Source: a virus. Taken from it: 31,063 nucleotides of DNA. Within the stretch, counting starts at the first letter, position 1. Each line of letters starts with the position of its first letter. A program made the position numbers and the translations under genes. The notes below the pieces were generated by a model that made no database searches, was not told the origin of the DNA, and saw nothing but the letters and a program-made list of their open reading frames with translations. Shown piece by piece: positions 4,171-10,983 of this stretch. The DNA lies in the IMG/VR virus record IMGVR_UViG_3300032296_000403, positions 1-31,063 of that record; one strand, 5' to 3'.

Positions 4171-4452
4171 TTATTCCTCCATTACAAAACAAACGTCTTG
4201 CCAACTCATCTTGAGTAAGCGCTCATCATTGTGTTTGATTTCCTCAAACTTTAGGTATTCGTCTTTGTATTCTTTGTGAAATGTGCCGAATGCGATCTTG
4301 TCGCCAACATTTAAACCCTCGGCCTGGGCTTCTGGGCCAACCGCCATAACTATTCCACGGCTTTCAGCTTCTGCCGATTGAAAATAAATTGTGCTTTGAA
4401 TGCGTTGTTCAGGGCGAACAAGAATCTTGTCTTTCAATGGCTGCAAGTTCAT
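4171..4452 (-). CDS. GroES-like co-chaperonin
   Basis: Predicted lid for the host GroEL chamber, probably helping to fold a phage virion protein. The 93-residue protein keeps the Cpn10 layout: MNLQPLKDKILVRPEQ at the N-terminus, a loop at about 17-32, then SRGIVMAVGP (31-40), the GLNVGDKIAFGTFH strand pair (46-59) and a closing DVCFVMEE. The mobile loop carries Ile22-Tyr23-Phe24 where GroES has its GroEL-binding Ile-Val-Leu. The start overlaps the upstream stop (ATGA) and has an AAGGAAG site. T4 gp31 and other phage co-chaperonins are precedents. Function is inferred from fold-level resemblance. Confidence 0.85.
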   Translation of the reverse strand: MNLQPLKDKILVRPEQRIQSTIYFQSAEAESRGIVMAVGPEAQAEGLNVGDKIAFGTFHKEYKDEYLKFEEIKHNDERLLKMSWQDVCFVMEE

Positions 4453-4655: not shown

Positions 4656-4846
4656 TTCGCTTCTCTAGCCAAAACTGCTTTGTTTAATCCCGCAGCCAGG
4701 CGTTCAGCAAAACCCTTGTTTTCTAAATCAAAGGTTCTGCCTTCTTTGTAATCAGCGAACTTTTCCTGATGTTCCACGGTAGATGGCATCGGAGATTCTC
4801 TCCTTGCCGCCAATGCCGCTGCTTCTAACTCGCTCAAGTGTTTCAT
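4652..4846 (-). CDS. Small hypothetical protein, 64 aa
   Basis: Begins MKHLSELEAAALAARRESP and is rich in Ala, Glu and Leu, probably mostly helical. The start is unusually well supported: AGGAGG lies 4 bases before the ATG at 4846. That start sits inside the upstream kinase-like gene, so the two genes share 95 bases in different frames. The final codon overlaps the next gene (ATGA). Function is unknown. Confidence 0.7.
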   Translation of the reverse strand: MKHLSELEAAALAARRESPMPSTVEHQEKFADYKEGRTFDLENKGFAERLAAGLNKAVLAREAK

Positions 4847-5627
4847 TTAACCTCCTACGAACTTCATTTTCCTCTAGTTTAGGTAGCTTGTCAAGCTGGC
4901 TTGCAATAGCCTTACCTTTACCTTTGGAGTTATCAACGATTTGTATGTTTACCCTGGGGTTGCCCTTGTATTTCTTTTGAAGTTCCTCAATGACCTGGCG
5001 TGCGCCAATGTGAGTTTTTAGATGTTCCTCAATTGGAACGGTGCGGCCTGAACCCTTTTCCTTTTCCATGCGGCTGGCCCTGCTCAAAGCGCCAAACTCC
5101 AACGCTTCAGCTGGGTCACGGTAGGTGTAGACAATACGAACCTTGCGCTTAGCATCTAATGCCTGTTTGATCTTTTTGTCAGCAGAGTCAAACTTGTTCA
5201 TGTTTGTGTCGTAAATCATTTCCGACCGTTTCAAGGCGGGATCGACACTTTCCAACAAATCTAACGCTGTGGTTTTGCCAGCACCTGTGCCGCCAGCACT
5301 AAAGACAACGGTGTTATCCATGCCTTTGGGTGTAGGGTTCTTTAGCTTTTCCGCATAAAGCTGCTTCATAAAAGCGCTAGATGGCTCATGCACATCAGCT
5401 GACTTGGTGCGGTCTGATCTGTACTCAGGCGACATTTCCCTGGCTACGTCAGTATTGATAATGCGTCCGCCCTTTGACTCAGGATGTGCTGCATATTCCT
5501 GAATCAATTGCGGATAGGCTTGCATCAGGCGTTGGAAATACGCCTGTTCAATAGGGTTGGTAGGGGCAACTGCCCTATCAGGGGCTGGCTGTCCCATCCC
5601 CATCATGGAGGACAGGGAGACAGCCAT
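4752..5627 (-). CDS. Zeta-toxin-like P-loop kinase
   Basis: A 291-residue protein with a Walker A motif SAGGTGAGKTTA (110-121) after a strand VVF, followed by IYDTN (D140) and a segment KVRIVYTYRDPAEALEFG, as in zeta-toxin/UDP-N-acetylglucosamine-kinase-like P-loop proteins. The first 100 residues are an extra domain containing GGRIINTDVAREM, resembling the region before the P-loop in phage and polyvalent zeta-like proteins. No antitoxin (epsilon-like) gene is adjacent; the neighbour upstream is a small basic protein. The start ATG at 5627 has no strong ribosome-binding site and lies just after the upstream stop, so coupling is likely. Substrate is unknown. Confidence 0.75.
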   Translation of the reverse strand: MAVSLSSMMGMGQPAPDRAVAPTNPIEQAYFQRLMQAYPQLIQEYAAHPESKGGRIINTDVAREMSPEYRSDRTKSADVHEPSSAFMKQLYAEKLKNPTPKGMDNTVVFSAGGTGAGKTTALDLLESVDPALKRSEMIYDTNMNKFDSADKKIKQALDAKRKVRIVYTYRDPAEALEFGALSRASRMEKEKGSGRTVPIEEHLKTHIGARQVIEELQKKYKGNPRVNIQIVDNSKGKGKAIASQLDKLPKLEENEVRRRLNETLERVRSSGIGGKERISDAIYRGTSGKVR

Positions 5628-7156: not shown

Positions 7157-7419
7157 TTGATAACTCCAATCATGCGTAAAGCCGCTTCTGGGCTGTCAAC
7201 TCTAGCCAACGTACTACCAGACCAATTGTCAAAAAAATTGGCTTGTAGACCCGTTAAACGCTTTTTAGAGGTACTTTTGATTTCCACCAAGAATGTGTGA
7301 CCACGAAATCCAACCAAAAGATCAACAGGCAAGCTAATGATCCAAACATAAGCGCCAGCAGCCCTTAGTGCTGAAACAATTTGTTCCTGATTAGCGTCAA
7401 CCCTTGCTGCTTGTCTCAT
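7153..7419 (-). CDS. VRR-NUC-like PD-(D/E)XK nuclease
   Basis: An 88-residue protein with the compact restriction-like fold signature: VDANQEQIVSALRAAGAYV (7-25), then D33 in PVDLLVGFRG and E46-x-K48 in FLVEIKS. The order (Glu/Gln helix, D, ExK) is that of small VRR-NUC/Holliday-junction-resolvase-like phage nucleases. The start has AGGAT 6-7 bases upstream and overlaps the previous gene by 23 bases. The gene probably takes the role of RusA/NinG-type junction processing in this nin-like block. The exact substrate is not known. Confidence 0.75.
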   Translation of the reverse strand: MRQAARVDANQEQIVSALRAAGAYVWIISLPVDLLVGFRGHTFLVEIKSTSKKRLTGLQANFFDNWSGSTLARVDSPEAALRMIGVIK

Positions 7420-8498: not shown

Positions 8499-8516
8499 AG
8501 TTTTTTTATTTGTCAA
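8490..8516 (-). promoter_or_regulatory. Promoter of the C4-like leader
   Basis: Perfect TTGACA (8511-8516) and perfect TATAAT (8490-8495) on the minus strand, separated by 15 bases, which is shorter than the usual 17. The -35 box overlaps the last codons of cro. Transcription should start near 8483, exactly at the first arm of the C4-like RNA. Confidence 0.65.
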
Positions 8517-8664
8517 ACCATTCTGGTTTTAATGCTTTTAATTGCCACACCCTAGCCTGGGGAACTGTGTCACCCCATTGGCTGATGGCTGCTCTTGTAA
8601 TGCCCAGCAGCTGTGCCAGGTTCTTTGCAGACCCAGCGTTTTTTATAGCTTGCAATTTATCCAT
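8506..8664 (-). CDS. cro: Cro-like repressor, 52 aa
   Basis: Encodes MDKLQAIKNAGSAKNLAQLL, then a recognition helix TRAAISQWG (23-31), VPQARVWQLKALKPEWF and a short end. It resembles P22 Cro in length and in the QxVAxxLGIxxAAVSQW-type helix-turn-helix. It should bind the palindromic sites between itself and the rightward operon. The ATG at 8664 falls at the predicted transcription start, so the mRNA is probably leaderless; no ribosome-binding site is present. Its 3' end carries the -35 box for the C4-like RNA. It could instead act as the main repressor, since no CI gene is seen. Confidence 0.8.
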   Translation of the reverse strand: MDKLQAIKNAGSAKNLAQLLGITRAAISQWGDTVPQARVWQLKALKPEWFDK

Positions 8665-8670
8665 GTTTGC

Positions 8671-8699
8671 ATATTAAGCCAACTTACACAAACAGTCAA
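8671..8699 (-). promoter_or_regulatory. Leftward early promoter (cro)
   Basis: TTGACT (8694-8699) and TAATAT (8671-8676) on the minus strand with a 17-base spacer. The -10 box ends 6 bases before the cro ATG, so transcription would start at or next to the A of the start codon. An operator-like palindrome (8674-8687) covers part of the -10. Confidence 0.7.
8674..8687. promoter_or_regulatory. Operator-like site 1
   Basis: TTAAGCCAACTTAC, matching the perfect palindrome at 8749-8762 in 11 of 14 positions. It overlaps the -10 of the cro promoter, so binding would repress cro. Confidence 0.5.
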
Positions 8700-8712
8700 A
8701 TACCCGACAAAT

Positions 8713-8726
8713 TTAAGGGGGCTTTA
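8713..8726. promoter_or_regulatory. Operator-like site 2
   Basis: TTAAGGGGGCTTTA, matching the palindrome at 8749-8762 in 10 of 14 positions with both half-sites (TTAAG, CTT) kept. It lies between the two divergent promoters, 39 bases from site 1 and 36 from site 3. Confidence 0.4.
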
Positions 8727-8736
8727 TAAATACCAT

Positions 8737-8765
8737 TTGACAAGCCAGTTAAGCTAGCTTAATAT
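8737..8765 (+). promoter_or_regulatory. Rightward early promoter
   Basis: TTGACA (8737-8742), a 17-base spacer and TAATAT (8760-8765), upstream of the gene at 8811. The spacer holds a perfect 14-bp palindrome. The transcript leader contains a short hairpin (CCC and GGG arms, about 8774-8790) and a TCTTTT tract before an AAGGAAATC ribosome-binding site. Confidence 0.75.
8749..8762. promoter_or_regulatory. Operator-like site 3 (perfect palindrome)
   Basis: TTAAGCTAGCTTAA is a perfect 14-bp inverted repeat between the -35 and -10 boxes of the rightward promoter. Its core is repeated at 10120-10133. Probable binding site of the Cro-like protein. Confidence 0.65.
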
Positions 8766-8810
8766 TCACCCATGCCCTGACGTTTCGGGGTCTTTTAAAA
8801 GGAAATCAAA

Positions 8811-9356
8811 ATGACCACTCAATATCTTTCATGCGCTGAGACTGCAAAATTAGTTCGTGCTGCTCTCAAAGAGTCTTTCCCTGGCATTCGGTTCTCTGTG
8901 CGTTCTAGCACATACAGCATGGGCGCTTCAATCAACATCAGCTATACCAACGGCCCAACTTACGATGCTGTCAAAAATGTTGTGGCAATGTTTGAGGGCG
9001 CTTACTTTGACGGGATGACCGATTACAAAGGTTACAACTACAGCAGCCTGGACGGTGTTGAGACTAGCTTTGGCGCTAACTACATTTTTGTTAGACGTGA
9101 ATTGACTGTAGAAGTTATGCAAGCAGCTGTGCAAGCAGCTTGCGAATATTACGGTTTGCAAGTGCCAGCTGTCAAAGATGGTTGCCAAGGCGCTTACATC
9201 GCTGATTCTATTGATTACAACGATCAAAGACGCATCATGGATCGGGTTTCTGCTCTCAGCTTCTGCGAGACACAACCCAGCCCCACATTGGCCCGTGTCG
9301 CTTTTTTAGGTGATGACGGTTACGGCTTTAACTCTGTTGGACGTTTGGCAGCATAA
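8811..9356 (+). CDS. LPD29-like early protein, 181 aa
   Basis: The N-terminal 75 residues (YLSCAETAKLVRAALKESFP, then FSVRSSTYSMGASINISYT, and FEGAYFDGMTDYKG) match my recollection of LPD29, a domain first named from large polyvalent proteins of phages and conjugative elements. Here it stands alone with a C-terminal part rich in aromatic and Gly residues. The biochemical role of the domain is not known to me. It is the first gene after the strong rightward promoter and so likely among the earliest and most abundant products; anti-defence or host takeover is a reasonable guess. AAAGGAAATCAAA precedes the ATG. Confidence 0.75.
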   Translation: MTTQYLSCAETAKLVRAALKESFPGIRFSVRSSTYSMGASINISYTNGPTYDAVKNVVAMFEGAYFDGMTDYKGYNYSSLDGVETSFGANYIFVRRELTVEVMQAAVQAACEYYGLQVPAVKDGCQGAYIADSIDYNDQRRIMDRVSALSFCETQPSPTLARVAFLGDDGYGFNSVGRLAA

Positions 9357-9366
9357 GGGGAACAAG

Positions 9367-9582
9367 ATGAAATTTCAAAAAACAATTGACATTTGGAAAT
9401 TAACTGATGACCAGGTGCGGGCCTTACGGCCTGGTCAATGGGTCAGCGCTGGCGGCAGTCTTGGGCGCTTTTATGGGGTTAAAAAATCAGGCTCTGTTGT
9501 TGTTGCCTGGTCAAACAACGCAAAAAGAAGCGGCAATTATTTTGATTACTGCCAAACCGTTTACCAATACGCAAGGGGATAA
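9367..9582 (+). CDS. Small hypothetical protein, 71 aa
   Basis: Begins MKFQKTIDIWKLTDDQVRAL, followed by a strand-rich middle (GQWVSAGGSLGRFYGVKKSG). The ATG at 9367 follows AAGGGGAACAAG; the longer frame from 9310 overlaps the LPD29 gene and was not used. The residue pattern suggests a small beta barrel. No family is recognised. It belongs to the rightward early operon. Confidence 0.7.
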   Translation: MKFQKTIDIWKLTDDQVRALRPGQWVSAGGSLGRFYGVKKSGSVVVAWSNNAKRSGNYFDYCQTVYQYARG

Positions 9583-9584
9583 AA

Positions 9585-9788
9585 ATGATCATTTCTCAAA
9601 CTTCTAGCCAAGTCGCAACATTTGTCAATGTTTTGGATGGCATCGCTTCCTTGGTAACTAAGGTTCAAAAGGGTTACGCAGTCACCCTGATCGACACAGA
9701 CGCAGAACAAGTTGTAACAACCAGAATTTACCCGCCCACCATGTTTGACCAGGCTGTCGCTTACGCAAAAAAATTAGCAAACATTTAA
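9585..9788 (+). CDS. Small hypothetical protein, 67 aa
   Basis: Begins MIISQTSSQVATFVNVLDGI and ends AVAYAKKLANI. AAGGGGATAAAA precedes the ATG, and it starts 2 bases after the previous stop. A mixed alpha/beta pattern with Val/Thr-rich strands is visible. No function is recognised. Confidence 0.7.
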   Translation: MIISQTSSQVATFVNVLDGIASLVTKVQKGYAVTLIDTDAEQVVTTRIYPPTMFDQAVAYAKKLANI

Positions 9789-9798
9789 AGGAAACATC

Positions 9799-9972
9799 AT
9801 GCAAATTTCTAAAACCGCATTTGGCTGGAGAGCCTTATCAACTGTTCAACTGGACGATGCAACCCGCATATCAATTGGAACAATGAAACGCAGCAGCGGC
9901 CTGATTACTACCACGGTGACGGGCAGTCGCAAAGAGGGTGAAATGTATTACTTCACCGTCACAAAAGATTAG
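9799..9972 (+). CDS. Small hypothetical protein, 57 aa, ending at an amber codon
   Basis: Begins MQISKTAFGWRALSTVQLDD and ends YYFTVTKD at TAG 9970-9972. AAAGGAAACATC precedes the ATG. The frame continues open after the TAG for 45 more codons (9976-10110) with protein-like sequence. This is probably the N-terminal part of a gene split by a single CAG-to-TAG change. The FGWRA and MYYFTV segments resemble small early proteins of related phages that are about 100 residues long. Confidence 0.6.
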   Translation: MQISKTAFGWRALSTVQLDDATRISIGTMKRSSGLITTTVTGSRKEGEMYYFTVTKD

Positions 9973-9975
9973 CAA

Positions 9976-10110
9976 ATGACTTGGGCTGTGAATGGCGGCA
10001 AAGCCACAGAAAAAGCCATCACCACGCAGCACCAAACAGTTATTGAACAAATTGACAAAATAATTGCTGAAAGTGTTGCTTTTTACGCAAATTTAAGGGT
10101 AAGCACCTAG
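9976..10110 (+). pseudogene. Continuation of the 9799 frame after an amber stop
   Basis: In frame with the preceding gene: starts MTWAVNGGKATEKAITTQHQ and ends ANLRVST at TAG 10108-10110. No ribosome-binding site precedes its ATG. The helical TEKAITTQHQTVIEQIDKII stretch looks like the natural C-terminus of the upstream protein. Either a nonsense-split gene or a short cotranslated product. Confidence 0.5.
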
Positions 10111-10136
10111 TTGATTTGGTTAAGCTAGCTTATAAT
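10111..10136 (+). promoter_or_regulatory. Second rightward promoter with operator copy
   Basis: A perfect TATAAT (10131-10136) with TTGATT at 10111-10116, a short 14-base spacer. The stretch GTTAAGCTAGCTTA, the ATTCA after the -10, the ATGCCCT hairpin arm, GGGTCTTTTAA and GGAAATCAAATGAC all repeat the region before the gene at 8811. The palindrome core is at 10120-10133. This looks like a duplicated promoter, operator and leader unit. Confidence 0.6.
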
Positions 10137-10182
10137 TCATTCATGCCCTAGCAAATCGCACAGGGTCTTTTAAGGAAATCAA

Positions 10183-10443
10183 ATGACAACTTTTACACAA
10201 TCCAGCCGCAACGTGTCCATGTATGGTTTTGAGGATATTGACGCTTACATTGAGTCAGTCAAAGAATCTATCACTTACCAATTCACAGGCGGCAACATGG
10301 TTGTTGCTGGCCTTATGTCTGACGCTCAAGAATTGATGACAAGAGACACAGAACGTGCCAGGCAAACCCTCAACATTGCCAAAACTATTCTGTTCATGAT
10401 TATGGATGGTGAATTAGTTGGCACACAGCCTTCACGCATCTAA
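10183..10443 (+). CDS. Hypothetical early protein, 86 aa
   Basis: Begins MTTFTQSSRNVSMYGFEDID and contains LMSDAQELMTRDTERARQTL, a helical segment. The first codons (ATGACA-ACT) and leader repeat those of the gene at 8811. AAGGAAATCA precedes the ATG. No family is recognised. It is the first gene behind the second operator-bearing promoter. Confidence 0.7.
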   Translation: MTTFTQSSRNVSMYGFEDIDAYIESVKESITYQFTGGNMVVAGLMSDAQELMTRDTERARQTLNIAKTILFMIMDGELVGTQPSRI

Positions 10444-10710: not shown

Positions 10711-10983
10711 ATGATTGACTACAAACTGCACTATTACTTTGATGACGTTGTGTCTTATGACAATGGCACAACGCTTGAGAACGTCAAAGTTGGCTATGAC
10801 TACTACCCCGCAGAAATCAATATGCCCCATGACCACAATTCAGCGGAAATCTACGATGTGTTTATCTTTAACTTAAAGGGTGATGACATTTCTTGTGATC
10901 TGCCTTTATCAGAATTTCAACACATCATGTCTGAAACCAAAATTCACCACGCCCGTATGCTGAAAGAAAAAAATGAAATCTAA
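10711..10983 (+). CDS. Hypothetical acidic early protein, 90 aa
   Basis: Begins MIDYKLHYYFDDVVSYDNGT and ends ARMLKEKNEI. It is rich in Asp, Tyr and His, with a strand-rich N-terminal part and a helical end. The strong negative charge resembles DNA-mimic style anti-defence proteins, but that is speculation. AAGGAAACCAA precedes the ATG. Confidence 0.7.
   Translation: MIDYKLHYYFDDVVSYDNGTTLENVKVGYDYYPAEINMPHDHNSAEIYDVFIFNLKGDDISCDLPLSEFQHIMSETKIHHARMLKEKNEI

Follow-up and report, generated by a model that had tools for sequence, protein, structure and literature searches.

The early region of this phage raises the question of why one control region stands twice in the same operon, once before the gene at 8811 and again before the gene at 10183, and whether the genes behind the two copies answer to one switch. 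The window, i.e., the whole stretch of DNA that was analyzed, is one virus record of 31,063 bases. Its rightward operon begins with gene A (8811 to 9356, plus strand), which has an LPD29 domain, and also encodes an ERF annealing protein and a YqaJ exonuclease. A gene for a Cro-like repressor (8506 to 8664, minus strand; Pfam P22_Cro, 6.5e-13) is divergent from this early operon; no cI-like repressor gene was seen between the divergent promoters, and the Cro-like gene is the sole repressor gene noted there. The gene behind the second copy (10183 to 10443, plus strand) encodes 86 amino acids and has homologues in other phages that are also preceded by such a unit. Elsewhere in the window, a Zeta-toxin-like protein (4752 to 5627, minus strand; Pfam, 1.6e-14) is encoded in a leftward operon near the terminase genes, and a GroES-like co-chaperonin is encoded at 4171 to 4452 (minus strand; Cpn10, 2.4e-6). 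The terminase relatives MW202520 and MW202674 each also have an annotated GroES-like co-chaperonin. Homologues of gene A with about 41% identity occur in Burkholderiales, which gives a weak hint of the host.

Two copies of one control region

A BLAST search with positions 8650 to 8830 had a sole non-self match in the window, at 10119 to 10191 (78% identity; E value, 2.2e-10). The copies align locally with a score of 65, whereas the best matches elsewhere on the two strands of the window score 22 and 25 and the best shuffle reaches 27; the E value and the comparison with shuffles rule out a chance origin of the repeat, which extends from 8748 to 8823 in copy 1 and from 10119 to 10194 in copy 2. 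The alignment bears out the sequence-only reading, which had held that the region before 10183 repeats that before 8811 and had named a palindrome, a -10 box, a hairpin, and GGTCTTTTAA as common parts, all of which were found in both copies. The palindrome GTTAAGCTAGCTTA lies at 8748 and 10119, CATGCCCT is present in both copies, GGTCTTTTAA lies at 8789 and 10164, and AAGGAAATCAAA lies at 8799 and 10172. Together with its Shine-Dalgarno stretch, GGTCTTTTAA occupies 8789 to 8810 in unit 1, where the stretch reads AAGGAAATCAAA, and 10164 to 10182 in unit 2, where it reads AAGGAAATCAA (both plus strand). The last motif claimed for both copies is shared but not identical, copy 1 having one extra A before the ATG. 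Both copies also fold as had been described, with hairpin arms that stay complementary while the loops differ. A strict 25-mer unit pattern had no match in the window, owing to indels. An upstream CAAATTTAAGGG (8708 and 10088) was tried as part of the duplication and was not counted because in copy 2 it is coding, being inside a 44-codon ORF at 9976 to 10110 that was read by eye, and because it lies at a different distance.

The promoters of the two units differ. Unit 1 has a -35 box, TTGACA (8737 to 8742), a 17-nucleotide spacer, and a -10 box, TAATAT (8760 to 8765), with a transcript start predicted from the spacing at A8772, all on the plus strand. Unit 2 has a -10 box, TATAAT (10131 to 10136, plus strand), with a start likewise predicted at A10143, and no proper -35 box: at the 17-nucleotide distance it reads TAGTTG, with 2 of 6 matches, while its -10 box and operator are perfect. 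As nothing in copy 2 corresponds to the -35 box of copy 1, the homology begins just to the right of that box, and the promoter of unit 2 may be weak on its own. The second-unit -35 box matches at only 2 to 4 of 6 positions in all 12 of the close relatives listed, although the box is perfect in the third units of three relatives (L007, L012, and L014). Transcription of the genes from 10183 on may depend mainly on read-through from the first promoter.

The poor -35 box, in the window and in those 12 relatives, also fits a view of copy 2 as a relic, a former unit whose -35 box was lost and which has no regulatory effect today, with the downstream genes served by read-through. This is quite unlikely, as in those relatives the -35 region varies but the operator, -10 box, and leader of copy 2 hardly change. 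Having lost or never had a -35 box, unit 2 probably supplies mainly an operator and a leader function; it would add these, maybe with only a weak promoter, within the transcript begun at unit 1.

Units in related phages and the genes behind them

Copies 1 and 2 are, by their sequences, members of a putative multi-copy control cassette in a large group of uncultured phages. The cassette consists of a sigma-70-like promoter with the -10 box over a palindrome, a leader starting with ATGCC 6 nucleotides past the -10 box, a hairpin of the form CCN...N'GG, UCUUUUAA, a Shine-Dalgarno site, and an early gene. The best 80 of 101 gene A relatives in IMG/VR were taken, of which 79 have an upstream region, and most of these 79 regions carry the cassette layout. 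The exceptions include L063 and L068, which have no leader and another palindrome upstream of gene A, and L061, which also lacks the leader and has an unrelated hairpin close to where the transcript should start. A scan with the unit pattern gave at least 119 stretches. The loci L083 to L195 were fetched by a search in which GCTTA, CATGCC, and GGTCTTTTA were fixed letters, and the invariant GCC and GGT likewise belonged to the patterns used. The ATG count (164/168), the half-site of the operator, and the invariant letters are therefore not independent evidence; only the third stem pair, the loops, the -35 box, the spacing, and the genes are. A looser pattern, in which any letter could stand at the third stem position, found 220 candidate units in 194 records (1.73 Mb), with GCC exactly 8 nucleotides past the -10 box in 171 of them; 168 distinct units in these records combine regular spacing with a promoter that scores as strong.

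More copies in relatives, which had been suggested as a check, were indeed found, at one to three units per representative locus: among 106 such loci, 45 have one clean unit, 54 have two, 5 have three, and 2 have none (the locus clusters and loop clusters used here do not represent a phylogeny). The unit pattern matched in 18 of 19 chosen long records, with 32 matches in total and none in a reversed control, and in 17 of the 18 all units of the record share a strand. The exception is G019, the record behind L186, in which the unit at 7240 to 7276 is on the strand opposite the other two and has an A-U third pair.

Outside this group, the genome_contigs collection (84,980 species) contained no match to the unit pattern, and a host gene element was rejected as the source on that result. 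No unit was present at the 6 loci examined of the 14 with bacterial gene A homologues. Among annotated phages, megablast found no match, and the unit region gave only short, weak matches with E values of at least 0.2; in MW202520 and MW202674, the closest relatives by terminase, all matches were judged to be due to chance and none to be a unit. Rfam had no match in the window at the gathering threshold and none up to an E value of 5 in 8660 to 10260, and among the papers listed by literature searches, none was seen to describe this element.

The first genes behind 172 unit instances form 47 families (BLAST single linkage), and 15 of these families occur both with and without a unit. They include three genes that have no unit in the window, at 9585 to 9788, 9799 to 9972, and 10711 to 10983 (all plus strand), whose homologues behind the second units of L022, L029, and L099, respectively, have one. 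These comparisons support the view that cassettes and genes have changed partners in the course of evolution, and in this way a cassette could place an early gene that is new to the phage under control of the resident Cro. The same family counts would be expected if the repeat were mainly a recombination joint for early gene swaps, its letters kept by recombination with no separate RNA function. That reading is very unlikely, since the third stem pair covaries while the loops diverge, a pairing that exchange alone would not preserve, and since the operators track the resident Cro. Copy 2 is closer to the unit-2 leaders of distant relatives than to copy 1, and among the matches listed, its leader type occurs in L012 (gene A 85% identical) and L017 (65%), which indicates that the duplication is older than the window phage. 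Taken as a recent event within this genome, the proposed copying of the unit together with its control signals is not supported, given these leaders and the absence of the -35 box from copy 2.

The palindrome and the Cro-like repressor

The putative operator palindromes are TTAAGCTAGCTTAA in unit 1 (8749 to 8762), which overlaps the -10 box, and TTAAGCTAGCTTAT in unit 2 (10120 to 10133). A predicted cro promoter (8671 to 8699, minus strand) has the mirror-image layout, with TTGACT, 17 nucleotides containing an operator-like site, TAATAT, 6 nucleotides, and ATG. That site, TTAAGCCAACTTA (8674 to 8686), has two mismatches to the unit palindrome and forms an inverted repeat with 8750 to 8774. As the -10 box TAATAT ends 6 nucleotides before the ATG, the cro mRNA is probably leaderless. 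The arrangement is that of P22 Cro-like systems, with a divergent Cro-like protein and operator-like sites in both divergent promoters, and the palindrome is, from the comparison with two related phages given below, most likely the operator of the P22-Cro-like repressor.

The operators of one genome resemble each other. At 59 loci with at least two units, operator likeness within a genome is 0.782, compared with a permuted mean of 0.688, and none of 20,000 permutations was as high, in a test that covers loci of shared ancestry, so that a kinship effect stays in its figures. Rows with odd spacing, a weak promoter, or an unpaired third position were dropped from this test; an earlier, unfiltered statistic (67 pairs; 0.715 versus 0.633) took in chance matches and is superseded. 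Without L042 and L053, the remaining 57 pairs gave 0.781 versus 0.712 (0/20,000). L042 and L053 are two close phages and count as one event. In these phages, TCACAAATGTGA is found in unit 1 and again at the cro promoter, and TCACATTTGTGA is found in unit 2, whereas the form of the leader hairpin is unchanged. The small HTH protein that they encode divergently is unlike the usual Cro, with weak YdaS and P22_Cro matches that are below the Pfam cutoff. We read this as an apparent swap of repressor and operators together. As the palindromes at the cro promoter and at both units change with Cro in these phages, the predicted coregulation of the units by Cro is well supported by the sequence comparison.

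The idea that the genes from 10183 on are coregulated with the first part of the operon therefore stands in outline, given operators that are alike within each genome and that shift with Cro in L042 and L053, and the recent, complete copying that had been attached to it does not. In the proposed mechanism, rising Cro would silence the cro gene and all the units at the same time. The whole model, a multi-copy Cro-operator cassette with an mRNA leader, is in our judgment probable, with considerable room for doubt. If it is correct, the control DNA rather than the gene carries the address, and an abundant group of uncultured phages would keep new early genes under a single switch. The representative loci allow cassettes, genes, and repressors to be compared, which makes the Cro-operator code and the minimal RNA leader directly testable.

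The leader and comparable elements

The leader hairpin is predicted at 8774 to 8791 in unit 1 and at 10145 to 10166 in unit 2 (plus strand), with covariation in relatives. Both window leaders have a predicted fold with a single hairpin and an unpaired Shine-Dalgarno site. The folding energy is ordinary, with z scores of -0.47 and -0.57 for the window copies and -0.57 to +0.96 over four leaders, and so the case for the hairpin rests on comparison between phages. The third stem pair, whose position was left free, is Watson-Crick in 166 of the 168 distinct strong-promoter units. Among 70 distinct hairpins, it is Watson-Crick in 68 (53 C-G, 12 G-C, 2 A-U, and 1 U-A), compared with a mean of 43.9 when the columns were shuffled (0/5,000 shuffles reached 68), and the next two stem pairs gave no covariation signal in these hairpins. 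The three-pair stem is in the minimum-energy fold of 58 of the 70 leaders, but no more than 41 of 67 have an open Shine-Dalgarno site.

Two departures from the usual layout bear on how the leader acts. A subgroup (L036, L069, L074, and L077) has about 12 to 14 extra bases between the -10 box and the hairpin, which indicates that a strictly 5'-terminal hairpin is not required; this longer leader (GGGAACCGTA...GATGACAACGCCC), upstream of gene A, has its own conserved letters. In addition, six leaders (L032, L055, L056, L118, L142, and L144) have the hairpin, UCUUUUAA, and the ribosome site but no recognizable promoter (172 places examined, 13 of them low scoring). That the leader is kept without a promoter suggests, from sequence comparison, that it acts in the mRNA. 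In L032, L055, L056, and L144, a GC-rich hairpin lies upstream of the promoterless leader. Those at about 1800 to 1880 in L032, 6360 to 6410 in L055, and 2680 to 2740 in L144, preceded by a hairpin such as GGGGCTTCGGCCCC, may represent another version of the cassette that is used within operons.

The start of the leader could also be read as ATG-CCC-stop, a two-codon minigene (Met-Pro-stop) controlling the downstream gene. The ATG is close to where transcription is predicted to begin, which is also true of cro with its probably leaderless mRNA, and ATG CCN is followed by a stop codon in 108 of the 164 leaders with an ATG, all three stop codons being used. This reading was attractive on the first 79 leaders and was dropped because 56 of the 164 have no stop (CAG, CAA, GAA, CGA, and others instead); the stops also follow from the common loops UAAC and UAGC. 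We consider it scarcely credible.

We prefer a leader that serves ribosome loading and mRNA stability, with nut-like antitermination as the main rival. The leader would act, and of this we are less sure, as an insulated, efficient ribosome-loading and 5'-protecting element, in which the hairpin would shield the 5' end and the Shine-Dalgarno site would be open in both window copies; the U-rich stretch is presumably a landing site of the ribosomal protein S1 type. In the nut-type alternative, a boxB-like hairpin and a boxA-like UCUUUUAA would let polymerase read through later stops. The units head early operons, and 39 of the 43 four-base loops are GNRA or UNAC. We take the arms GCCCU/AGGG to resemble lambda boxB and UCUUUUAA to resemble boxA, and the order boxB-boxA is that of rRNA leaders. 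However, boxA normally has C or U where UCUUUUAA has G. The loops are very diverse, from 4 to 15 bases (longer than four in 125 of 168 units), and they vary within one genome, which makes a single loop-reading protein unlikely. Moreover, the element is always fused to a ribosome site, although the pattern required one, and among the matches listed for both strands, the window's divergent cro transcript shows no element, the one leftward copy seen being that in G019. On balance, antitermination is unlikely. In its favor, UMAC loops are described in PMC12550061 as GNRA mimics that occur in ribosomes and phage boxB RNAs.

A further and more doubtful possibility than the model as a whole is that the leader represents a new type of RNA element in phages, in which a tiny hairpin with a GNRA or UNAC cap is joined to UCUUUUAA and a ribosome site; it would tag early mRNAs and be carried, together with a Cro operator, as an exchangeable cassette. 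If so, the element may be an antitermination signal in boxB-boxA order or a mark that favors phage early mRNA over host mRNA at the ribosomes or protects it from decay.

Several known systems resemble the cassette in part. Arbiol et al. in 2010 reportedly described mobile regulatory cassettes (promoter-early stem-loops) in T4-type phages, in which the stem-loop is said to be a terminator before the promoter. These cassettes reportedly also repeat a promoter and a stem-loop at the borders of exchangeable gene modules, but there the stem-loop precedes the promoter, whereas here the hairpin is in the leader after the promoter and is combined with an operator. No terminator-like plus-strand site was listed within 200 nucleotides before either window unit. 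The lambda nut sites and the boxB of phage 21 (for the loops, see PMC12550061) likewise have a small GNRA-like hairpin and a U-rich partner in early leaders. The order is reversed here, with UCUUUUAA 3' of the hairpin rather than boxA 5' of boxB, and the loops vary; the pattern design places UCUUUUAA 3' of the hairpin in all units, and both window copies show this order directly. Cluster O mycobacteriophages also have one palindrome in many copies per genome, a repeated 17-bp palindrome with 34 copies in Corndog, partly inside genes, and no conserved leader is reported in the part of PMC4351075 available to us.

The closest analogue appears to be the ESAS/SAS cassettes of cluster K mycobacteriophages, which are described as a repeated promoter with an inverted repeat (ESAS, a proposed repressor site) and a start-associated sequence by the start codon (PMC3203893, PMC11373665, and PMC12699233). 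Both systems stand ahead of many gene families, mostly outside structural genes, as far as these accounts go. The general property of a SigA-like promoter that contains an inverted repeat and lies ahead of several genes is present here, with letters unrelated to those of ESAS. The SAS consensus GGGATAGGAGCCC is absent near the start codons, where 87 distinct leaders, compared by eye, share GCCN...N'GGTCTT instead. The described phages have 7 ESAS and 13 to 19 SAS copies, compared with one to three units here. In the phages studied here, moreover, the palindrome overlaps the -10 box and tracks Cro, and a covarying hairpin and UCUUUUAA precede the ribosome site. The cassette also provides a parallel, of unrelated sequence, for the mycobacteriophage ESAS/SAS elements, themselves still unexplained.
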